A stretch of 64,000 nt of DNA from Cellulosilyticum lentocellum DSM 5427 (lineage in GTDB: Bacteria > Bacillota > Clostridia > Lachnospirales > Cellulosilyticaceae): positions 3,873,001-3,937,000 of the forward strand of contig NC_015275.1 of NCBI RefSeq assembly GCF_000178835.2, written 5' to 3'. Every line of letters starts with the position of its first letter. Within the stretch, counting starts at the first letter, position 1. Positions 4,635 through 43,618 of the stretch are shown here, in pieces. Made by a program: the position numbers and the translations under genes. The notes beneath the pieces are model-generated. The model saw nothing but the letters and a program-made list of their open reading frames with translations, did not search any database and was not told where the DNA came from.

Positions 4635-5774
4635 TTACCTGACTTTATGCAAATAAAAATCATAAATACAACTTACTATATATTCTATATCCTCTTTCTT
4701 AATGCCATAATACATTGGTAATCTAACTAGCTTTTCACTCTCTCTAGTAGTATACTCATCTTCCCCATTAAATCTACTATACATCAAACCGGCTTCTGAA
4801 CTATGTAGAGGAATATAATGAAATACCGCTAAAATATTATGTTTTCTTAGGTATTCTATTAACTTACTCCTCTCTTCTATATCTGTAGTCTTTATATAAT
4901 ATATATGAGCATTATGCTGACACTCTTTCGGAACAACTGGTCTCCTGATAAAACCCCTTACTTCTAATGCTTCTAGGTTTTCGTGATATCTATTCCATGA
5001 GTCCATTCTATTTTTCTTAATTATTTCTGCCATTTCTAGTTGTGCCCACAAATATGCTGCATTTATATCACTAGGTAGATATGATGAACCCTGGTCAACC
5101 CAAGTATACTTAGCTATCTCTCCTCTAAAAAATTTACTTCTATTTGTTCCTTTTTCTCTTATAATCTCCGCTCTTTCTACGTAACTGGGTTGATTAATTA
5201 TTATTGCTCCCCCCTCTCCCATGCTATAATTTTTAGTTTCATGAAAACTATAGCTTCCAAAGTCCCCTATAGTACCTAGTGCCTGCCCTTTATATGTAGA
5301 CATTACTCCTTGCGCAGCATCTTCAATTAAGAACAAAGCATGTTTTTGCGCTATTCTTTTAATGGTATCCATTTCACATGCTATCCCTGCATAGTGTACT
5401 ACTACAATTGCTTTTGTTCTAGATGAAATTGCACTTTCTATCTTCGTCTCATCTATATTCATAGTATCAGGTCTAATATCTACAAATATAATTTTTGCTC
5501 CTCTCAGTACAAAAGCATTAGCAGTAGATACAAAAGTAAATGATGGCATAATTACTTCATCGTTTGGTTTTATTTCGGCTAATATTGCACTCATCTCTAA
5601 CGCATGGGTACATGATGTAGTTAATAAGACTCTGGTTGCCTTAAACTCTTCCTCCATCCATTTACTACATTTCTTACTAAATATTCCATCACCACATATC
5701 TTTTTATTCTTTATAGTCTCGCCAATATACTCTATTTCTTTACCTGTATATGGTGGTTCATTAAAATTAATCAT
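4635..5774 (-). CDS. wecE: dTDP-4-oxo-6-deoxy-D-glucose transaminase (WecE/RffA type)
   Basis: This PLP-dependent sugar aminotransferase of 379 residues should convert dTDP-4-keto-6-deoxyglucose to dTDP-4-amino-4,6-dideoxygalactose (dTDP-Fuc4N). It matches Escherichia coli WecE closely along its length: CGDG near residue 27, PSFTFVSTANAFVLRGAKI, RPDTMNIDE, HYAGIACEMDTI, EDAAQGVMSTYKG, and the PLP lysine in FHETKNYS at K181. I chose the ATG at 5774 because GAGGAG precedes it. It is the last gene of the four-gene cassette between rplA and rplJ. No rmlA/rmlB is in the window, so its substrate must come from elsewhere. In enterobacteria it serves enterobacterial common antigen; here a sigma-D promoter suggests flagellar glycan. 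Confidence 0.92.
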   Translation of the reverse strand: MINFNEPPYTGKEIEYIGETIKNKKICGDGIFSKKCSKWMEEEFKATRVLLTTSCTHALEMSAILAEIKPNDEVIMPSFTFVSTANAFVLRGAKIIFVDIRPDTMNIDETKIESAISSRTKAIVVVHYAGIACEMDTIKRIAQKHALFLIEDAAQGVMSTYKGQALGTIGDFGSYSFHETKNYSMGEGGAIIINQPSYVERAEIIREKGTNRSKFFRGEIAKYTWVDQGSSYLPSDINAAYLWAQLEMAEIIKKNRMDSWNRYHENLEALEVRGFIRRPVVPKECQHNAHIYYIKTTDIEERSKLIEYLRKHNILAVFHYIPLHSSEAGLMYSRFNGEDEYTTRESEKLVRLPMYYGIKKEDIEYIVSCIYDFYLHKVR

Positions 5775-5858
5775 CGTACTCCTCTTTCTAATTCTACCCC
5801 TCTTCATTATAATTATTATATATCCTTTTTTATTGTAACTATTTCAGTATATATACTA

Positions 5859-5911: not shown

Positions 5912-7168
5912 CTATATTCTATATAATAACTCTTCACCATTATCTCCTATTATATGTAGAACATTATAAATTTCATCCAGTTTCTTTTCTATATCATCAT
6001 ACCTATCAACTTTAAAAAATACCATCCCTATGGTTTCCCTTTTCAACCCTTTATTCCTGATACATTCTCCTTGTTGATAATATAGCTCTATATTACTTAC
6101 ATTCGGCATTTCCTTAATTGTTGAAACGCCATCTATTTCTTTAATATAGCCTTCTTTCCCATATAGTTGTATTTGTGCAATAATCGTTGTATCCCTAGGA
6201 TTATAATTCTCTAATTTACTTATAAGCGACTTAGAATATCCCCTTCCCATAGAATATTCAATTAAGATTTGTTCTATCTTTAACCCAGATAAATAAAAAG
6301 CAATTCTATGATCTCCATTTCCGAATAATCTTAGAGTAGCTTCATTTATCACAACCTCATTCCCATCATAAAACATTTGTACTGCTAAAGGACCATCTTG
6401 AATCTTATATGCTTGTATAATCTTTTCCATATACTCTATAACACTAGAGAACAATTTTTCGTATACACTAGATGGATAAATAAATTTATATACTAACCCT
6501 ATATCATTAGGCGAGAATGTAAATTTCTCTCTATTACATATATATATTAAATATCCTTTCCCATCTTTAACCCACGCAAAAAAATTATACTCTTTACCTA
6601 AATTATATTCCTCGATAATAACGCTTCTCTTCTTAGATATATTTTCGACTTCTGTATACTTTTCTTTTATCTCCCTAATACTATTAACTTTAAATACCCC
6701 TCTACTTCCATATCCATCTATTGGTTTAATAACAGCAGGAAACTTAAACCCAATCAATTGTTGTTCTATATCTTGTAAATAAATTACCTTTCTTTGCATA
6801 GTTTTAACACCAAATTCACCTAGTATTTGATGCATAATTTGTTTGTTCCTAATAATTTTCAATTGTTCATCTGATAAATAACATTTAAGCCCCATTTTTT
6901 CACATAGCGGCACATATGCTTCCATTAAAACATCTGAAAAGCCTGTTACAATTCCTGAAACTTCATTTTCTATACATATCTTTTCCATTCGTTTGATATC
7001 AAAAACATCTACATTATAGCTTTTATGAGCAATCTTTTTAGCAGGACCATTAGTATAATTATCACAAACTATAGTATAATATCCATTTTCTATACATGTC
7101 TTTGCCAATTCTTCAAAGTCATGTTGCGAGCCTAATATCAAAATTACTTGCTTATCTTTTATTCTCAT
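5912..7168 (-). CDS. ATP-grasp carboxylate-amine ligase
   Basis: This 418-residue protein has a Rossmann-like N-terminus (VILILGSQHDFEELA) followed by an ATP-grasp fold: FPAVIKPIDGYGSRGV for ATP binding near residues 140-155, IIEEYNLGKEYNFF, and VINEATLRLFG with the metal-binding acidic residues. Such enzymes couple ATP hydrolysis to amide or peptide bonds. The start at 7168 has GGAAGAGGT upstream; a longer reading overlaps more of the preceding gene. It overlaps the end of the methyltransferase gene by 17 bases and sits beside wecE. I infer, without direct evidence, that it may acylate the amino group of a 4-amino sugar with an amino acid or other carboxylate. The exact substrate is unknown. 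Confidence 0.7.
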   Translation of the reverse strand: MRIKDKQVILILGSQHDFEELAKTCIENGYYTIVCDNYTNGPAKKIAHKSYNVDVFDIKRMEKICIENEVSGIVTGFSDVLMEAYVPLCEKMGLKCYLSDEQLKIIRNKQIMHQILGEFGVKTMQRKVIYLQDIEQQLIGFKFPAVIKPIDGYGSRGVFKVNSIREIKEKYTEVENISKKRSVIIEEYNLGKEYNFFAWVKDGKGYLIYICNREKFTFSPNDIGLVYKFIYPSSVYEKLFSSVIEYMEKIIQAYKIQDGPLAVQMFYDGNEVVINEATLRLFGNGDHRIAFYLSGLKIEQILIEYSMGRGYSKSLISKLENYNPRDTTIIAQIQLYGKEGYIKEIDGVSTIKEMPNVSNIELYYQQGECIRNKGLKRETIGMVFFKVDRYDDIEKKLDEIYNVLHIIGDNGEELLYRI

Positions 7169-7883
7169 AAATACCTCTTCCAATATCATCTTTCAGGCAC
7201 TTAATAATATCTTGGTTCTTCTCCAAATATTCCACGAAATATGTAGGTCTAATATTAATATTATTACTTTTACTTATAACAATTGAAAATTCATAGGGTG
7301 AATAATCATTTCTAATAACTATATTCTTCGAAAGAGTATATGCAAAGTTAATAATCTTTTCCACATTTGCATAAAAATTAGCTTCATATTGAATTTCTGC
7401 TCTGTCTGATAAAAAGTTAAACATCACACTTTTATTACATAGTTCAAATGCTTTTGCAATCATTTGTTCTATGTAAATATACGTATCCATATCTCTAATC
7501 TTTCTATAAAAAATTTGATTTCCTATAATATAATCAAATTTTTGTTCATATGTATCATTTATAAAATTACCTTTAATGAATTTTATATCATCTGTGCCGT
7601 ACTTTTTCTCTCCTTGCTTAATAAAATTTTCTACAATATCCACACCTAAGTACTTGTAATTATTGAATCCCTTAAATTTAAAATAACGATTTATATCACC
7701 CAACCCACAACCAATATCCAATATACTTCTATCATTCATATTAATGTCCTGAATCAGCGAATTAAACCCTATAAACTGTTTTACTGCATCTACATTCAAA
7801 CTTCTAGGACTATCTCCATACTTCTTATAATTAGAGCTGAACTCATCTTCTCTACTTTTTAAAAATTCTTCTATCTTATGCAT
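7152..7883 (-). CDS. SAM-dependent methyltransferase, class I
   Basis: This 243-residue protein has the SAM-binding motif ILDIGCGLGD near residue 54 and LGVDIVENFI as the acidic loop after strand 2. A following FDYIIGNQIFY block resembles motif IV. The ATG at 7883 has GAGAGGAAA upstream; an earlier ATG-like start would enter the preceding gene. It is translated between the glycosyltransferase and the ATP-grasp gene in a tight operon. The likely target is a sugar or its acyl substituent, by context only. The gene is strikingly AT-rich, with abundant ATA and TAT codons, compared with the neighbouring ribosomal genes. Confidence 0.75.
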   Translation of the reverse strand: MHKIEEFLKSREDEFSSNYKKYGDSPRSLNVDAVKQFIGFNSLIQDINMNDRSILDIGCGLGDINRYFKFKGFNNYKYLGVDIVENFIKQGEKKYGTDDIKFIKGNFINDTYEQKFDYIIGNQIFYRKIRDMDTYIYIEQMIAKAFELCNKSVMFNFLSDRAEIQYEANFYANVEKIINFAYTLSKNIVIRNDYSPYEFSIVISKSNNINIRPTYFVEYLEKNQDIIKCLKDDIGRGIYENKR

Positions 7884-7911
7884 TTCATTTCCTCTCTCAT
7901 TAATATTTAAT

Positions 7912-9390
7912 TCATCTATATATATATTCATCTATATATCTTATTAGCTTATCCCAATTATTCCTTCTATAATACGAATGTCTCGTATATGTATCCTTGC
8001 ACTTCTGGTCATATAACTTCGGATTATCAATCATATCTTGTATTGCTTGCTCCATTTTTTCGTACGATTCATATCTGAACTGAGCATCGATATAGAATTT
8101 CACATCCCCATAATTTAAAGATACAACTGGTATCCCTGCCTCCATTGCTGCGATGCAACTATACCCCCCACCATTTCTCTTTGGGTTTAAATACACATTG
8201 GCCAACTGTATAGTGGCTACTAATCTCTTACGCTTTCCCATAAAATAAACCCTATCTTCCATCCCTAAAAATCTATTTCTATCCAAATAAGATTTATAAT
8301 AACTGCCAATAAACATAATCTTAACGTGATTATTCCTATATAATAATTGAGTACAAATATCTAGTACATCATCTGTTATTTCTTCTTTCAGCCTATTTCC
8401 CACTATACATATAACAAAATCCTCTTTTCCTATTCCATATTGATTCCTATTATAATAATCTTTCTGTTCATCTTTAAACATATCCAAACTATATGGTACT
8501 TCTATCAAGTGTTGACTATTTTTTAACTTATGTTCTCTTACGTCTAAACCCTCATATGTAGAAACAAAATATTTTGTACAACAAAGCTTAGCATTCGCTG
8601 ATAATGAAATAGTAAAAACATCAGTAAAACTACTACAAACTTCTGCTAATATATTTTTATCCCCTATACTGAAAACATATCTAGGCTTTATATTATATAT
8701 CTTTCTTGCCATTTCATCTATTTGAGTGTTAGATACTTCAAATGTATAGTTGTCTACATATTTTACTTTACATCTATCTATACCTAATTGCTTTGTAATT
8801 GCTTTTATAGATTCATCATCATGTTTTATATAATTTCCACTAAAGCCATCAAGAAAGTCATATGTTTGTTTTATTGGCATCTCCCCAGAATTAATAATAT
8901 AGATATATTCAATTTCATCAATCGAATCATTTAGCATCTTTACCATTTGTAAAAGTAATTTTGTTGGCGAATGCTTAATTCCCAAAAATTGACTTGTAAT
9001 AAACACTACTGATTTTCTATCTCTATCCTTAGCCACAAATTTATGTACTTGTTTCAATCCACTATTCGCCTTTATTTCTTTTACTAAAAAATCATAACCA
9101 TTATATATATCTATTCCTATATCTTCCGTATTTACAAAATTAATTCTTGATAATTGCCATACAATATATATTTTTGCTTCTAATGGTATAGATTTATTAC
9201 GAATTAATAATAACAGTACTTCTAGTGCTCTTTTATCCTTTTCAAAATGAAAATATATAGATAATGCCAAAATTACTTGCCTTATCTGTTTCTCAGTAAA
9301 AATAATTTCTTCTACATTTAGTTCAAATAATTTATGGCACATATTATATAAGTTAATTGGAATTTGTTCTTTTAAAAAATCTTCCTTCAT
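7912..9390 (-). CDS. glycosyltransferase, GT-B fold
   Basis: This 492-residue protein has a helical N-terminal part of about 110 residues and then a GT-B glycosyltransferase. The C-terminal nucleotide-sugar half is recognisable from FVICIVGNRLKEEI, VKIMFIGSYY, RVYFMGKRK and NPKRNGGGYSCIAAMEAGIPVVSLNYGD, a GT4-like donor-binding segment. No signal peptide or membrane span is evident, so it is cytoplasmic, which fits modification of flagellin before export. It is the first gene of the cassette and lies just downstream of a sigma-D-like promoter. Whether it extends a flagellin glycan or attaches the first sugar cannot be told from sequence. Confidence 0.8.
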   Translation of the reverse strand: MKEDFLKEQIPINLYNMCHKLFELNVEEIIFTEKQIRQVILALSIYFHFEKDKRALEVLLLLIRNKSIPLEAKIYIVWQLSRINFVNTEDIGIDIYNGYDFLVKEIKANSGLKQVHKFVAKDRDRKSVVFITSQFLGIKHSPTKLLLQMVKMLNDSIDEIEYIYIINSGEMPIKQTYDFLDGFSGNYIKHDDESIKAITKQLGIDRCKVKYVDNYTFEVSNTQIDEMARKIYNIKPRYVFSIGDKNILAEVCSSFTDVFTISLSANAKLCCTKYFVSTYEGLDVREHKLKNSQHLIEVPYSLDMFKDEQKDYYNRNQYGIGKEDFVICIVGNRLKEEITDDVLDICTQLLYRNNHVKIMFIGSYYKSYLDRNRFLGMEDRVYFMGKRKRLVATIQLANVYLNPKRNGGGYSCIAAMEAGIPVVSLNYGDVKFYIDAQFRYESYEKMEQAIQDMIDNPKLYDQKCKDTYTRHSYYRRNNWDKLIRYIDEYIYR

Positions 9391-9448: not shown

Positions 9449-9476
9449 TTATCGACATATATTATATAATTCTTTA
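9449..9476 (-). promoter_or_regulatory. sigma-D (flagellar) promoter of the sugar cassette
   Basis: TAAA (9473-9476), 16 bases, GTCGATAA (9449-9456). The sigma-D consensus is TAAA-N14 to 16-GCCGATAT. Three other sites of the same form precede flagellar genes in this window. The -35 starts exactly where the T-tract of the rplA terminator ends. The 5' untranslated region to the glycosyltransferase would be about 50 bases. Confidence 0.75.
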
Positions 9477-9517
9477 AAAAAAATCGTAAAACTTATTTAC
9501 ATAAGTTTTACGATTTT
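9476..9517 (-). terminator. intrinsic terminator after rplA
   Basis: A perfect 17-bp stem (9480-9496 with 9501-9517, core CGTAAAACTTAT) and a 4-base loop are followed on the minus strand by a T-tract. It begins 8 bases past the rplA stop and ends the rpmG-secE-nusG-rplKA transcript. Confidence 0.93.
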
Positions 9518-12397: not shown

Positions 12398-13588
12398 TTA
12401 TCTAGCTAAAATGGCTACAGCCGCTAATGTATTATATCCATCCTCTTTACATTGCCTATAAATCTCATCAATAAAATCTGTATGGTGCTCAACTACCCTA
12501 GAAAAAGAATAAACTATCTCTACTATCTCATCAAATGCTAAACGTTTTTGATTACAGTACCATTTAGCAATTAACATCTGTTTTATAACCGCATAGTTTA
12601 TAATTAAGTTCATAATTTCTTTATTGAGATTACTTGTCCATATCACATTCATAACATTAGTATATAAGCTATACACAATAAAATGCTCTAATAGATATTT
12701 TCTATCTGTAAAGTATGTGTCAAACTCACGCTCTATCTTTTCAATCATTACCCCTTCATCTGCTATCTTTTGTGTAAAAGTATTTATATCATCAATGCAT
12801 ACATTAAATCCTTTGTTTACCACACTCACACTAGTCCTTGCCTGTAATACTGCTTTAACAAAAAGATTCTTACGTTCCGTACTAGGTTCAATCTTGTCTA
12901 GCTCTTCATTAACATCAGATCGTTGAATGAAACTCTTAACTTCTTTTATGACACTTGTAAAATCACTGTATTTCTTCTCCTCAATAACTTTCTGTACTTT
13001 TCCTTCTACTAACTTTATAAAAAGCAACCTTTTCCATAATGCAATTTCTCTAAATTGTGCAATATCTATTAGCAAAGCTCTAGTCTCCCAAATCATATCA
13101 TGCATCTGCATATCATACTGTGTTTGTACACTATTGCGATAATCTAGTACACTCAATTCCTCTTCTTCCATCAAAAAACTTAATGGTTCTTGAGAAGCCA
13201 ACAGTTTCTCTACAACTTCAGGGCAAGATAAACTAAGTCTTCGTTCGCATCTATCGTAATATCTTACAATTGTTCTAGGATATAACTTGCACGTATTAGA
13301 TAAGTATTCTTCTCCTAAGTTGATATATATGTTACACAGATTTTTCGCATCTAAAAATGGACATTTTCTATCTTCTAAATTTATTTTAGCGTAGATTAAT
13401 TCATAAGTTTCTTTTCTATTTCTAGTAATCCGCCCATTTAAATAGCTTCCAAATTCTCCTTTTATTTTTCCGTACTTTATAAAACTTTCTTTGTCGATAT
13501 GTATATTCCAGTCTTGACAACAGTGCTCCCTACAGTCACTTCCCGTACATTTAAAACTACTATAAAACTCTGGCTTTAGTATTTTCAC
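12398..13588 (-). CDS. fliB: flagellin lysine-N-methylase, FliB family
   Basis: This 396-residue enzyme is expected to methylate lysine side chains of flagellin. The N-terminus carries the cysteine cluster of the family, CTGSDCREHCCQDW (C14, C19, C23, C24), then CPFLDAKNLCNIY and NTCKLYPR with further conserved cysteines, thought to bind an iron-sulfur cluster. The start is a GTG at 13588 with GGGGTGAG upstream. It lies downstream of legF in the flagellar glycan run, which supports flagellin as substrate. The flagellin encoded at 36188-36997 has several lysines in its D1 region that could be targets. Confidence 0.85.
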   Translation of the reverse strand: MKILKPEFYSSFKCTGSDCREHCCQDWNIHIDKESFIKYGKIKGEFGSYLNGRITRNRKETYELIYAKINLEDRKCPFLDAKNLCNIYINLGEEYLSNTCKLYPRTIVRYYDRCERRLSLSCPEVVEKLLASQEPLSFLMEEEELSVLDYRNSVQTQYDMQMHDMIWETRALLIDIAQFREIALWKRLLFIKLVEGKVQKVIEEKKYSDFTSVIKEVKSFIQRSDVNEELDKIEPSTERKNLFVKAVLQARTSVSVVNKGFNVCIDDINTFTQKIADEGVMIEKIEREFDTYFTDRKYLLEHFIVYSLYTNVMNVIWTSNLNKEIMNLIINYAVIKQMLIAKWYCNQKRLAFDEIVEIVYSFSRVVEHHTDFIDEIYRQCKEDGYNTLAAVAILAR

Positions 13589-19023: not shown

Positions 19024-20151
19024 TTATCTGAGATAATTCATTAGTAACTCTTTATTTTGAATAGGTGAAGTTGTGGGTCTCCCTAAGTCTTTTCTAACAT
19101 CTAAATTAACCTTCACTTCTATAAATGTAGGTCCTTTTATTGTTGCACTCATACTCAAGCATTCCTTTAGTTTTTCTTCATCTGATACTGAGAAAGTATT
19201 CCTATAGCCAACAGCTCTTGCTATTTCACCTAAATTCATACTATTAACCACATTAGGTATTCCTCCTACAGTCTCATGTACACCATTATTCAACACAATA
19301 TGGACGTAATTATGTGGTTTGCAAGCCCCTATTACACCAAGGGATCCCATATGCATTAGTAACGCTCCATCTCCATCTATACAGTATACTAGCTTTTCTT
19401 TTTTCTGCATGGCTATACCTAAAGCAATCATAGAGCTATGTCCCATACAGCCTACGGTAAGAAAATCTTTTTCATGAGTCTCTACGTACTTTTCTCTAAT
19501 TTCAAATAGTTCTCTAGAGGCTTTTCCTGTAGTTGAAATAAAAACGCTTTCTATAGGCGCTAATCTCGTAATTATCTCGATTGCTTGCTCACGGCTCAAC
19601 CTTCTATTTTCTATATCTAATTTAGGTCTTGGTAACTCTTCAATACTTGCCTTTTTTACAACAATAGCTACTTGTTTATTAAATCGTAATTTATTTCTTA
19701 ACTCCTCCAGACCGGATAAAAATTCTTCAACTGAAGTTGTCTTATCTATCACTATATATTCAATCTCTAGACATCTTAATAATTCTAAAGTGATTTCCCC
19801 CTGAAAGACATGTTGTGGCTCGTCTTTTACCTTTGGTTCTCCACGCCAACCAATTACAAGCACCATTGGAATAGCATAAACCTTCTGATGGGTAAGAGAA
19901 GTAATTGGATTAACAGCATTCCCAATACCGCTATTTTGCATATAAATAAGAGGAATCTTCCCTGTAGCCAAATAGTATCCTGCACATAAGCCGACCGCAG
20001 CACCTTCATTTGCACATACTATATGTTGCTCTGAAATCCCGAACTTCTCTAATAGAAGATTACAGAATCCTTGTAACTGTGAATCAGGTACCCCTGCAAA
20101 AAATTCAACGCCCAATGTCGCTATACTATTATAAAATTCTTCTGCTTTCAT
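19024..20151 (-). CDS. aepY: phosphonopyruvate decarboxylase
   Basis: This 375-residue thiamine-diphosphate enzyme should decarboxylate phosphonopyruvate to phosphonoacetaldehyde, the step that pulls phosphonate synthesis forward. The N-terminal half has the family segment VEFFAGVPDSQLQGF and the catalytic Glu region VCANEGAAVGLCAGYYLATG (E49). The C-terminal half has the ThDP-binding GDGALL at 260-265 and the paired NN at 288-289. It lies between copy A of the TPR enzyme and the alcohol dehydrogenase, two genes from PEP mutase. It is equivalent to Fom2 of fosfomycin synthesis. No phosphonoacetaldehyde hydrolase or PhnW-type aminotransferase is nearby. Confidence 0.92.
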   Translation of the reverse strand: MKAEEFYNSIATLGVEFFAGVPDSQLQGFCNLLLEKFGISEQHIVCANEGAAVGLCAGYYLATGKIPLIYMQNSGIGNAVNPITSLTHQKVYAIPMVLVIGWRGEPKVKDEPQHVFQGEITLELLRCLEIEYIVIDKTTSVEEFLSGLEELRNKLRFNKQVAIVVKKASIEELPRPKLDIENRRLSREQAIEIITRLAPIESVFISTTGKASRELFEIREKYVETHEKDFLTVGCMGHSSMIALGIAMQKKEKLVYCIDGDGALLMHMGSLGVIGACKPHNYVHIVLNNGVHETVGGIPNVVNSMNLGEIARAVGYRNTFSVSDEEKLKECLSMSATIKGPTFIEVKVNLDVRKDLGRPTTSPIQNKELLMNYLR

Positions 20152-20190
20152 CTGTTCTCATCCTCCTAACCATATTCATCTATTTCTTTA

Positions 20191-21318
20191 TTAAAGTAAT
20201 GCAATTAAAAGTTTATTTACATCATCTACTCCTAGATTTATTGGGTTGTTATCCATACGTCCTTTTGCTATAGATTCCTTTGCTATATCATTAATCATCT
20301 CTCTAGATATACCCCAATAACTCAGCTTAAGTTCTTTTTTTGCCACACTATTTAGCCAAGACTTTAAACCGCCATACTGCGTAAATAATCTTTCCAATTC
20401 TTCTTCCTCCTCGAAAGATCCCCGATTTAGCTCATATATTGATGATAATGTCATCGCTACTGCAAAACCATGTTCAACTCCGTGATTTAGAGTTAAGGGA
20501 TAAGATATAGAATGGCTAGCTGTAGTTCTTGTTTGAGAAAAAGCTAATCCAGCTAGTACTGAAGCTGTACATAATTTTCTTCTATACTCTATATTCTCCA
20601 AATCTATTAAGGTCATTTCTAAGTACATCATAATAATTTCCATACTCTTTAATGCCATATTTCTAATAATAGGATGTGTGGCTCTAGACCAATACGCTTC
20701 TAATGCATGTGCAAATGCATCTAGTGTAGTTGATAAGGTTAACCTTTTTGATAATTGACACATTAATTCAGGTATAATAATTGCTTTCTTTGGATAAATA
20801 AGCTCCATTTCCACTGAATACTTTTTCTTTTCCTCTTCATCCCAAACAGTAGACCATTTTGTAAGCTCTGCACCCGTTCCTGCTGTAGTTGGTATAGCAA
20901 TAACAGGTAGTGTGGCTTTTTGAGTTGAATATGCTTTTGTTTTTATACATTGTCGTATCTCTTCATTCTCTACTAAATTCTTAAATGGATATGTAAGAAA
21001 TATACTTAGTACCTTAGCTAAATCAATAGCACTTCCTCCACCAATAGCAATAATTTGTTCTGGAATAAAATTTCCCATTTCATTGATTGCTTTTTTAATA
21101 TGTTTAATATCAGTATAACCTAGTGGACGATTCAACCAATAGATTTCACCCAATTTCTCTATTCGCATGACATCTTCTTTTATGCAAAAACTTTCTAGCA
21201 AATGTAATGAACAAATTAGAAGGCTCTTTTTCTGACGGGCTTCTTTATTTATAAATTCTTTCAAATATCCTATTTCTTCATATATTATTTCTGTTGGAGG
21301 TAGTTTAATACTTGTCAT
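20191..21318 (-). CDS. iron-containing alcohol dehydrogenase (phosphonoacetaldehyde reductase candidate)
   Basis: This 375-residue group III alcohol dehydrogenase has the nucleotide-binding GGGSAID (residues 93-99), IPTTAGTGAELTKWS, and the metal ligands in TTLDAFAHALEAYWS and NHGVEHGFA. Between phosphonopyruvate decarboxylase and PEP mutase it most likely reduces phosphonoacetaldehyde to 2-hydroxyethylphosphonate, as PhpC and FomC do. Only 3 bases separate it from the PEP mutase stop. The substrate assignment is inferred from neighbours; the fold assignment is firm. Confidence 0.82.
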   Translation of the reverse strand: MTSIKLPPTEIIYEEIGYLKEFINKEARQKKSLLICSLHLLESFCIKEDVMRIEKLGEIYWLNRPLGYTDIKHIKKAINEMGNFIPEQIIAIGGGSAIDLAKVLSIFLTYPFKNLVENEEIRQCIKTKAYSTQKATLPVIAIPTTAGTGAELTKWSTVWDEEEKKKYSVEMELIYPKKAIIIPELMCQLSKRLTLSTTLDAFAHALEAYWSRATHPIIRNMALKSMEIIMMYLEMTLIDLENIEYRRKLCTASVLAGLAFSQTRTTASHSISYPLTLNHGVEHGFAVAMTLSSIYELNRGSFEEEEELERLFTQYGGLKSWLNSVAKKELKLSYWGISREMINDIAKESIAKGRMDNNPINLGVDDVNKLLIALL

Positions 21319-21321
21319 AAA

Positions 21322-22617
21322 TTATCTTTCCTTTATTAAGGTTAATATCTCTTTAACCGGCATACATAATTTATCTACTTCATAAGCTCTCTCATTTTCT
21401 AGGATAACTCTAGCAGTATTTTGCATTGCTGGAAAAGCACTTCTAATGAGTTGATTTGCATAAATAACTATATTAATCCCATGATTATATAATTCCTCTT
21501 CATATACTTTATTGAAGGTAGTTGGTACTACAATAATAGGTGTTTGTTTATTCTGCAGCCTAAATGCATCACAAAAAGCAAATATTTCATCTGGCTCTTT
21601 TTTTCTAGAATGAATCATAATACCATCAGCTCCGGCATTCACATAAGCCTGCGCTCTTGCTAAGGCATCTTCCATCCCTTTTTCCAAGATTAGACTTTCT
21701 ATTCTAGCTATTAACATAAACTCCTTAGTTTTAAGGGCTGCTTTTCCTACTCTAATTTTCTCACAAAAACTTTCTATACTAGCTTGGTCTTGATGAACTT
21801 CTGTACCGAACAAACTATTTTTCTTAAGCCCTTCTTTATCTTCAATAATAATAGCAGATACACCCATACGCTCTAAAGTTCTAATATTAAAGTTAAAATG
21901 CTCTACTAACCCGCCAGTATCTCCATCCAATATAATCGGCTTAGTGGTTACTTCTAGAATTTCCTCGATAGTTTTTAATCTAGAAGACATGTCTACTAAT
22001 TCTATATCCGGTTTTCCCTTTACTGTAGAATCACATAAACTAGATAACCACATAGCATCAAATTCATTTATCTTGCCATCCTTTTCTAGTTTTGTATTTT
22101 CTGCAATTAATCCTGTAATGCCACTATGTACCTCTAGAACTCTAATGGTTCTATTCATCTTTAATAGCTTTCTTAGCCTTGCACGTCTAAACTCTGGCAT
22201 GGATAATCTTTCCCTCATAGTATTTTCTAAGCATTTAATATTATTGTCTTCTGTGTAAGGAAATTCTACAAGTTCTCCATCCCATTCTTTTAATATATCT
22301 ATCACTTTACTTCTTATAGATGCTTGATAACCTGTACGCCAATCATCACCATGAACTACATAGTCAGGTTTTACTTTTCTTAAATTATTTGTATAATCCA
22401 ATTCTTCTTGTACAATGACTTTTGAAACATATTTAATAGATTCAATAATTTGCAATCTCTGTTCTAGATTAATAATAGGATATCTTTTATATGATGCCAT
22501 TACCTCATCCGTTAGAACACCTACTGTAACTTCACCCAGCTCAGCTGCTTTTCTCAGTATTTCAATATGTCCATTATGAATAACATCCGTTCCAAAACAC
22601 ATATATACTTTTTTCAT
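21322..22617 (-). CDS. bifunctional cytidylyltransferase-phosphoenolpyruvate mutase (Fom1-like)
   Basis: This 431-residue fusion has residues 1-135 as a nucleotidyltransferase of the glycerol-3-phosphate cytidylyltransferase type, with the HxGH motif at H14-N-G-H17 and IINLEQRLQIIES. Residues 150-431 are PEP mutase, with LDGDTGG near 230 and the diagnostic EDK-x5-NS motif (E259 to S268, EDKEGLKKNS). PEP mutase makes the C-P bond, turning PEP into phosphonopyruvate. The same fusion occurs in fosfomycin Fom1, where the cytidylyltransferase domain makes cytidylyl-2-hydroxyethylphosphonate. With the two preceding genes, the set predicts PEP to activated hydroxyethylphosphonate. No Fom3 methylase or Fom4 epoxidase is present, so fosfomycin is not the product. 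Confidence 0.92.
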   Translation of the reverse strand: MKKVYMCFGTDVIHNGHIEILRKAAELGEVTVGVLTDEVMASYKRYPIINLEQRLQIIESIKYVSKVIVQEELDYTNNLRKVKPDYVVHGDDWRTGYQASIRSKVIDILKEWDGELVEFPYTEDNNIKCLENTMRERLSMPEFRRARLRKLLKMNRTIRVLEVHSGITGLIAENTKLEKDGKINEFDAMWLSSLCDSTVKGKPDIELVDMSSRLKTIEEILEVTTKPIILDGDTGGLVEHFNFNIRTLERMGVSAIIIEDKEGLKKNSLFGTEVHQDQASIESFCEKIRVGKAALKTKEFMLIARIESLILEKGMEDALARAQAYVNAGADGIMIHSRKKEPDEIFAFCDAFRLQNKQTPIIVVPTTFNKVYEEELYNHGINIVIYANQLIRSAFPAMQNTARVILENERAYEVDKLCMPVKEILTLIKER

Positions 22618-23330
22618 TATTTCATTCCTCTCAAGTAAGCTCTTATCTTATTCAAGTCTTCTATATTATCAATCTCCCTGCATAGAGCATCACCTATATA
22701 GAATGGATAAATAGCTATCTCATCTAGTTGCTCATTAAGGGCTTTTTCTGCATAGCAATTTACTTGTCCTTTCTCACAATACACTTTTATTTGTTCTAGC
22801 CATTTGAGCCAGTCTTCCTTATTTAATTTATATAACGGCTGACAAGCTAAAGCTTCATCAAAAAACTCAGTACCTATGGCTTGTACTTTGCCTCCTTTTA
22901 TAACAGCCTTAAAATCTTTTTTAGGTAAGGGTAGTTTCTCACAAACAACTACACTACTTTCTTTTTCTCTTAATATGGCTTCTAATACACCTTCTTCAAA
23001 TACTAAATCCCCATGTAATAATACAACATCCTCCCTTAGTTCATTAGCTGCCAGAAGTATGGAATAAATATAGTTGGTTTGACTATACAAAGGGTTATGT
23101 ACAAATTTAAAATTTATCTGCGAAAAATATCCTGTAAGATACCCTTCTAGTAAATCCTTGTGTGGTCCTGTAGTTATAACAATCTCCGTAATACCTTGTC
23201 TTGCTAGTATCTCAATTTGTCTTTCAATAATAGTTTCTCCATTACCTAAGTCAATCATACATTTAGGAATAGTTGTTGTTAAATCTCCCATTCTACTTCC
23301 TATTCCCGAATTAAGTATTAATGCTTTCAA
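22617..23330 (-). CDS. LicC-like nucleotidyltransferase
   Basis: This 237-residue NTP-transferase-fold protein starts MKALILNSGIGSRMGDLT and continues with PKCMIDLGNGETIIERQIEIL. That is the nucleotide-binding loop and lysine of phosphocholine and sugar-phosphate cytidylyl/uridylyltransferases. VVLLHGDLVF carries the metal-binding Asp. Its stop codon overlaps the start of the PEP mutase fusion. A similar protein in Campylobacter jejuni (Cj1416) activates phosphoglutamine with CTP in phosphoramidate synthesis, next to an APS-kinase-like protein, exactly as here. It could therefore cytidylylate a second phosphorus compound, or share this job with the fused domain. Confidence 0.75.
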   Translation of the reverse strand: MKALILNSGIGSRMGDLTTTIPKCMIDLGNGETIIERQIEILARQGITEIVITTGPHKDLLEGYLTGYFSQINFKFVHNPLYSQTNYIYSILLAANELREDVVLLHGDLVFEEGVLEAILREKESSVVVCEKLPLPKKDFKAVIKGGKVQAIGTEFFDEALACQPLYKLNKEDWLKWLEQIKVYCEKGQVNCYAEKALNEQLDEIAIYPFYIGDALCREIDNIEDLNKIRAYLRGMK

Positions 23331-23345
23331 ATCCCTTCTCCTTTC

Positions 23346-23861
23346 TTATAATATATATTGATTGTCTCTTAAATAGTTTAATATATCCTCCACTTTGTGT
23401 TCTAAGCAATCCAAGGTATTGTTGTCTACGATTAACTCTGGATTCTTGGGCACTTCTGGTTTAATATCTACACCAACTACATTAATGGTTTCACCAATTA
23501 AGGCTCTACTATATAATCCCTTCTTATCTCTCTTAATGAGATTTTCCATTGTTACTTCTATGTATATCTCACAGTACTTATTAAAACTAGCTCTATTTCT
23601 CTCTTGAATACGATGAAAAGAACCTATCGTTGCACAGACCACATTAATGTCCTGATTATCTAGCATTTTACATAGATTATGTATCTTTTCTGCTTGTATA
23701 TACCGTTCATCATAACTATACCCATATACCCCTAGTACCTCTCTTAAAATATCACCATCTAGAAATACTGTATTAGGATAAATATTCTTTATTTCATGAT
23801 AAACTGCTGTAGCTATTGTCGTTTTACCCGCTCCAGCCAACCCCGTAATCCATATAATCAT
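23346..23861 (-). CDS. APS-kinase-like P-loop kinase, probably not for sulfate
   Basis: This 171-residue protein has the Walker A motif ITGLAGAGKTTIA, FLDGDILREVLG (family GDxxR), and a LID region KGLYSRALIGETINVVGVDI. It matches adenylylsulfate kinase (CysC) in fold and length. No ATP sulfurylase, sulfotransferase or PAPS reductase lies nearby. It is adjacent to a LicC-like nucleotidyltransferase and PEP mutase. In C. jejuni the equivalent Cj1415 is a cytidine-diphosphoramidate 3'-kinase, not an APS kinase. By analogy this protein may phosphorylate the ribose 3'-OH of a cytidylyl-phosphonate. That is inference. Confidence 0.75.
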   Translation of the reverse strand: MIIWITGLAGAGKTTIATAVYHEIKNIYPNTVFLDGDILREVLGVYGYSYDERYIQAEKIHNLCKMLDNQDINVVCATIGSFHRIQERNRASFNKYCEIYIEVTMENLIKRDKKGLYSRALIGETINVVGVDIKPEVPKNPELIVDNNTLDCLEHKVEDILNYLRDNQYIL

Positions 23862-36089: not shown

Positions 36090-36116
36090 ATATCGACCAT
36101 AATACTTATTGTTTTA
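36090..36116 (-). promoter_or_regulatory. sigma-D promoter of flaG-fliD-fliS and downstream glycan genes
   Basis: TAAA (36113-36116), 15 bases, GTCGATAT (36090-36097). It sits between the flagellin terminator and flaG. With few internal promoters seen, it may drive much of the 24 kb that follow, modulated by the hairpin at 29863. Confidence 0.82.
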
Positions 36117-37078: not shown

Positions 37079-37105
37079 ATATCGTCCTATTTTCTTTTGA
37101 CTTTA
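37079..37105 (-). promoter_or_regulatory. sigma-D promoter of flagellin
   Basis: TAAA (37102-37105), 15 bases, GACGATAT (37079-37086). The predicted leader is about 75 bases and contains the CsrA-type hairpin. The -35 lies 22 bases after the csrA stop codon. Confidence 0.85.
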
Positions 37106-43591: not shown

Positions 43592-43618
43592 ATATCGGTC
43601 CTTATTTTCGCTTCATTA
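43592..43618 (-). promoter_or_regulatory. sigma-D promoter of flgM-flgN-flgK-flgK-flgL
   Basis: TAAT (43615-43618), 15 bases, ACCGATAT (43592-43599). The -10 is nearly perfect; the -35 has one change. It lies about 38 bases before flgM. Confidence 0.8.

Follow-up and report, generated by a model that had tools for sequence, protein, structure and literature searches.

The four genes that separate rplA from rplJ in Cellulosilyticum lentocellum DSM 5427 quite probably constitute a flagellin-glycan cassette, as judged from their families and from gene order in relatives. The best overall explanation is that they form a displaced flagellin-glycosylation module lying behind the rplA terminator and most likely read from a sigma-D promoter, a combination whose chances as a whole we put slightly above even.

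In the window (the whole stretch of 64,000 nucleotides that was analysed, positions 3,873,001-3,937,000 of a single 4,714,237-base contig), the minus strand carries flgM and, farther on, fliC, flaG, fliD, fliS, two Maf-like genes and a nonulosonate (leg/neu) island, followed by rpmG-secE-nusG-rplK-rplA, the four-gene cassette (9390-4635) and rplJ-rplL-rpoB; gene names in the window were assigned by eye wherever no family search is cited. The cassette is located about 27 kb downstream of fliC on the same strand, past nusG-rplKA, and comprises the following genes.

7912..9390, minus strand: cassette gene 1, a 492-aa GT4-type glycosyltransferase (PF00534), 32% identical over 476 aa to a glycosyltransferase in the flagellin operon of genome G018
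7152..7931, minus strand: cassette gene 2, a 259-aa SAM methyltransferase (PF13649, a generic methyltransferase domain)
5912..7189, minus strand: cassette gene 3, a 425-aa ATP-grasp ligase, L-amino-acid-ligase-like (PF13535)
4635..5807, minus strand: cassette gene 4, a WecE/RffA dTDP-4-amino-4,6-dideoxygalactose transaminase (TIGR02379, NF008687; PDB 4piw/6blg), whose start codon is probably internal to this ORF (MINFNEPP...)

The family comparisons make the WecE assignment of gene 4 solid. The protein scored 637.6 bits against TIGR02379 (cut-off 434.85) and 627.4 bits against NF008687 (cut-off 375), that is, 627-638 bits for WecE versus 163.6 bits for QdtB (3frk) and 133 bits for DesI; the solved WecE structures (4piw/6blg) are the closest to it, and no other gene of the genome exceeds the TIGR02379 cut-off. 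For the ATP-grasp protein, the closest matches are phosphoribosylglycinamide synthetase-like proteins and L-amino acid ligases (4wd3, 3vot), with LAL_C2 below its own cut-off. Its homologues in other Clostridia repeatedly adjoin WecE-like aminotransferases, which supports acylation of an amino sugar, and formation of an amide bond by this ligase is plausible, indeed probable. The methyl and amide decorations put forward in the original prediction each have a candidate enzyme, the amide in the amino-acid-ligase-like ATP-grasp protein and the methyl in the generic methyltransferase domain, and both keep the status of predictions. RmlA and RmlB are encoded at about 4.153 Mb, hundreds of kb from the cassette at about 3.88 Mb, where their genes adjoin an FdtA/QdtA-like gene (by eye) of another sugar pathway. 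No flippase, polymerase or lipid-carrier transferase was found in the cassette.

Several further features were recorded in passing. A module of WecE-like aminotransferase, GT2 and ATP-grasp genes recurs in other Clostridia (loci L188, L189, L190, L193, L198 and L204), often next to ABC-transport substrate-binding genes. In the window, a candidate FliB-like flagellin lysine N-methylase (12398-13588, by eye) lies between the leg/neu island and rpmG. The nonulosonate island itself contains a phosphonate-type module (19024-23861, names by eye) with ORFs for a phosphonopyruvate-decarboxylase-like protein, an iron alcohol dehydrogenase, a cytidylyltransferase-PEP-mutase fusion, a nucleotidyltransferase and an APS-kinase-like protein, bordered by two sulfatase/phosphatase-like TPR proteins; this module may add phosphonate to the flagellin glycan.

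The point at which the cassette is inserted falls precisely between rplA and the promoter of rplJ with its L10 leader, and both rplJ elements are intact in this genome. The insertion point is defined by three elements.

9517-9480, minus strand: intrinsic terminator of rplKA, with a 17-pair stem, -18.3 kcal/mol, z = -7.75 against shuffles, and a T-tract that extends to 9476
4613-4585, minus strand: rplJ promoter TTGACA-N17-TATACT, beginning 22 bp past the wecE stop codon
4575-4436, minus strand: ribosomal protein L10 leader (RF00557), kept with rplJ

In genera where rplJ directly follows rplA, a TTGACA-type promoter for rplJ usually begins 11-44 bp past rplA, with the L10 leader after it; among these genomes the promoter was not found in G022. 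No strong terminator after rplA was seen in the genomes with adjacent genes, G014 offering one weak 8-pair candidate, and rplA ends in a strong hairpin in C. lentocellum and in G002, G003, G005 and G023. All gaps were refolded for terminators; an ungapped hairpin search misses the bulged ones in G003, G005 and G023. The rplA-rplJ gap holds NeuB/NeuC/NeuA and other sugar genes in G003, RfbF/RfbH and radical-SAM genes in G023, and an IS fragment, a cassette remnant and duplicated rplJ-type genes in G002, while the contigs of G005 and G001 end at this gap. The content therefore differs among close relatives at one site (C. lentocellum, G003, G023 and the remnant in G002), in the manner of an island module. 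Furthermore, G002, G003 and G023 have the flagellar operon immediately upstream of nusG-rplKA. The terminator, the differing cassettes and the flagellar operon upstream together mark the rplA-rplJ gap as a site for glycan cassettes where the flagellar island ends, and the gap looks like a port for flagellin-glycan cassettes between ribosomal operons. In G002, rplJ occurs as a tandem pair (L076, 1300-1785 and 3007-3492), each copy with its L10 leader, and the IS fragment and the cassette remnant separate the first copy from rplA; the pair may reflect either a true duplication or an artefact of assembly.

Nothing links the cassette to flagellin glycosylation more strongly than an operon of G018, a member of the same family. 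This operon runs fliC-flaG-fliD-fliS-maf-legC-ptmE-legB-acT-neuB-neuC-neuA and, 8 bp after neuA, continues on one strand with a glycosyltransferase (32% to the cassette enzyme), a PseH-like N-acetyltransferase, WecE (72%), RmlA and RmlB. Linkage of sugar-nucleotide and glycosyltransferase genes to flagellin genes, a further trait of an island module, is thus seen in the same-strand position of the cassette and in its homologues in the G018 operon. Relatives of the glycosyltransferase also occur in flagellar or nonulosonate clusters of G014, G343, G253, G208 and G276. None of the 23 other family genomes searched has the cassette, and a single scan of the genome collection yielded only a distant Ignavibacteriae protein. 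In a WecE tree of 10 rows, the sequences of the family were grouped weakly (90/95), and the placement of the cassette copy as sister to that of G018 was not resolved. Within the taxonomic order, the neighbours of most sampled WecE loci are of polysaccharide type (GT2, transporters, GT-C; by eye) and not flagellar, and WecE alone was rejected as flagellar evidence.

The rplA terminator implies that the cassette requires a promoter of its own in the approximately 90 bp between terminator and glycosyltransferase gene, where the only good candidates are two overlapping sites, one sigma-D-like and one sigma-A-like. They are listed here with the reference sites of the window.

9476-9449, minus strand: candidate sigma-D promoter, with TAAA at 9476-9473, a spacer of N16 and GTCGATAA at 9456-9449, 58 bp upstream of the glycosyltransferase start codon
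9490-9461, minus strand: sigma-A-like promoter TTTACG-N18-TATAAT, overlapping the sigma-D-like site, with its -35 inside the terminator stem
36090..36116, minus strand: reference site of flaG, TAAA-N15-GTCGATAT, 12/12
37079..37105, minus strand: reference site of fliC, TAAA-N15-GACGATAT, 11/12
43592..43618, minus strand: weak reference site of flgM, TAAT-N15-ACCGATAT, 10/12

The motif TAAA-N16-GTCGATAA is present on the minus strand as originally described, and the first T of its TAAA (9476) is the last base of the terminator T-tract. The accompanying claim that the same form precedes flagellin, flaG and flgM holds for flaG, nearly for fliC and poorly for flgM with its TAAT. The strict form (TAAA, spacer 14-17, GYCGATAW) has two matches within the window, at flaG and at the cassette, with one mismatch at fliC and two at flgM; the spacer is 16 at the cassette and 15 at each of the three reference sites. 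Like other Firmicutes sigma-D (sigma-28) promoters, the cassette site combines TAAA with a -10 of the form (G)YCGATAW upstream of a flagellum-linked gene, in a genome that encodes SigD (264 bits against a cut-off of 189.6), and its GTCGATAA is close to GCCGATAT (lineage form [TG][CT]CGATAT). Unlike them, it has a spacer of 16 instead of 15, GA instead of GT after TAAA and CGATAA instead of CGATAT, and it overlaps both a sigma-A -10 and the terminator T-tract. The lineage form was taken from 19 flagellin promoters of relatives, mostly TAAAGT...CGATAT, in which the spacer was 15 in 19/19 and 16 in 0/19; since the gathering favours sites that are already sigma-D-like, the collection describes the lineage form and is no test of it. 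Three related gut flagellin genes have been predicted with a distance of 17 to a 7-mer -10, which equals a spacer of 16 here (PMC3720852), so this spacing is not disqualifying.

The site stands above chance locally. The strict pattern arose in 23 of 20,000 shuffles of the 134-bp gap (0.1%), and a site as good by weight matrix in 10 of 2,000 shuffles unpenalised (0.5%) or 30 of 2,000 with a spacing penalty (1.5%), frequencies that concern this one gap out of some 15-20 open to the choice of the original prediction. The matrix was trained on the relatives' flagellin promoters and gave unpenalised scores of 16.8 bits for fliC, 15.2 for the cassette, 14.5 for flaG and 12.0 for flgM; with non-15 spacing penalised, the cassette site fell to 9.8 bits, rank 29 in 346 kb (both strands counted). 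Chemoreceptor promoters had been considered as a training set and were dropped in favour of these flagellin promoters, as none of the genome's own 35 chemoreceptor upstream regions (L141-L175) reached the unpenalised score of the cassette and their best sites resembled random sequence; the lack of any sigma-D-like promoter above chance there is an observation in its own right for a flagellated genome. Genome-wide, the strict pattern gave 15 matches against 46 for a reversed control; most matches fall inside genes, and the few placed where a promoter might be include those of the cassette, of flaG and of one gene for a secreted protein. By itself the pattern consequently marks no regulon, and it was dropped as a regulon marker. 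The secreted-protein match (L015, C1:4196896-4196923) lies about 37 bp upstream of its predicted gene, possibly a further sigma-D gene. Because any T-tract followed by AAA creates TAAA, that half of the cassette motif comes cheaply, and the information resides in GTCGATAA. At the heads of the other gap cassettes, the matrix gave at best 6.8 bits in G003 and a weak 9.8-13.1 bits in G023. The motif, above chance locally yet off-model, is suggestive of sigma-D, and we give the site an even chance of functioning as a sigma-D promoter.

The same flagellin-glycan cassette might instead run constitutively from TTTACG-N18-TATAAT, the sigma-D likeness being coincidental, a possibility that we rate as real and less probable. 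This site has an exact -10 TATAAT, a -35 matching at 4/6 positions and an allowed spacing; the gap cassettes of G003 and G023 show no clear sigma-D site, nor do the chemoreceptor genes of C. lentocellum. However, an equally good sigma-A match occurred in about 10% of shuffles (481/5,000) compared with 0.1% for the strict sigma-D pattern, its spacer is 18, and its -35 forms part of the terminator stem. Transcription mainly through read-through from rplKA, the default within a ribosomal operon and compatible with the shared strand, appears very improbable in view of the 17-pair stem, the 8-T tract and the z of -7.75, and because strong terminators follow rplA in Cellulosilyticum-type genomes and do not show up where rplJ is its immediate neighbour.

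A different question is whether the sugar reaches flagellin at all. The cassette could supply a different surface glycan, such as a cell-wall or S-layer polysaccharide, with a Fuc4N-type sugar, its flagellar proximity being incidental; the mostly polysaccharide-type setting of the sampled WecE loci, the non-flagellar locations in which ATP-grasp relatives co-occur with WecE-like and GT2 genes and the position of rmlAB in a different sugar cluster all favour this. We nevertheless consider it unlikely, given that by far the best relative of the glycosyltransferase stands together with WecE in the G018 flagellin operon, that the flagellar operon is next to the insertion site, which in G003 holds nonulosonate genes, and that the cassette lacks flippase, polymerase and lipid-carrier transferase genes. 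The original prediction of a late-flagellar, Fuc4N-type flagellin sugar gained from the G018 homologues of the first and last cassette genes and from the glycan-cassette gap in relatives. The motif proved a weaker argument than claimed, with its spacer of 16, CGATAA, the poor flgM site, the overlapping sigma-A -10 and no counterpart in G003. The flagellar link is better backed by comparative genomics than by the motif.

Under the favoured explanation, the glycosyltransferase, methyltransferase, ATP-grasp and WecE genes (9390-4635, minus strand) would be a module displaced from the flagellin glycosylation island, insulated by the rplA terminator from the ribosomal operon and transcribed from its own promoter, most likely the sigma-D-like site and hence alongside flagellin, at about even chances. 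RmlA and RmlB from elsewhere in the genome would supply dTDP-4-keto-6-deoxyglucose, which WecE would aminate to dTDP-Fuc4N; the ATP-grasp enzyme would acylate the 4-amino group, the methyltransferase would methylate the sugar, and the glycosyltransferase would attach it to flagellin or to the existing glycan of flagellin. Observed are the terminator, the place of insertion, the families to which the genes belong, the change of cassettes at this site among relatives and the operon of G018; sigma-D use, sugar identity, the order of modification and flagellin as acceptor are what we infer. More tentatively, at somewhat less than even chances for all parts jointly, the gap would be a port for interchangeable flagellar-glycan modules, each sitting between the terminator that seals rplKA and the untouched rplJ promoter and L10 leader; in this genome, a sigma-D promoter beginning on the terminator's last T would couple the module to late flagellar expression, and flagellin would receive a methylated, amide-decorated Fuc4N besides its nonulosonate.

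A 2026 survey of Clostridium described hypervariable flagellar glycosylation islands (FGI/HVR) with exchangeable sugar modules beside flagellin genes; strains of C. butyricum carry RfbB and RffA (Fuc4N) or CDP-hexose genes, nonulosonate genes are also among the alternatives, and Fuc4N on C. butyricum flagellin was predicted, according to the authors unreported before (PMC13317340). The present site resembles these islands in its interchangeable modules with the same alternatives. It differs from them in that the Clostridium islands lie between flagellar genes, whereas this cassette, which includes methyltransferase and ATP-grasp ligase genes, is found past nusG-rplKA, in the rplA-rplJ gap, with a terminator ahead of it. 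For the combination of aminotransferase, methyltransferase, acylation and transferase, the closest worked-out analogue is the flagellin viosamine island of Pseudomonas syringae (vioA, vioM, vioT, vioB, vioS, vioR), mutants of which shift flagellin mass (PMC3927599). The likeness, by analogy and in outline, covers a dTDP-4-amino-4,6-dideoxyhexose aminotransferase, a methyltransferase, N-acylation and a dedicated transferase. VioA leads to viosamine (Qui4N), whereas the cassette enzyme is WecE-type (galacto, Fuc4N); acylation follows an ACP-based pathway in P. syringae and probably an ATP-grasp ligase here; and VioT has 1,173 aa, whereas the cassette glycosyltransferase is a different, 492-aa GT4 protein. 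New here are the site between ribosomal operons, the insulation by terminator and promoter, and the ATP-grasp variant. If the favoured explanation is true, a flagellin-glycan island spills across nusG-rplKA-rplJL-rpoBC, a gene cluster among the most conserved in bacteria, and sugar modules are swapped at a defined, transcriptionally insulated point. The cassette would make it possible to test both Fuc4N on flagellin, which in Clostridium is so far a prediction only, and the acylation of an amino sugar by an ATP-grasp enzyme.
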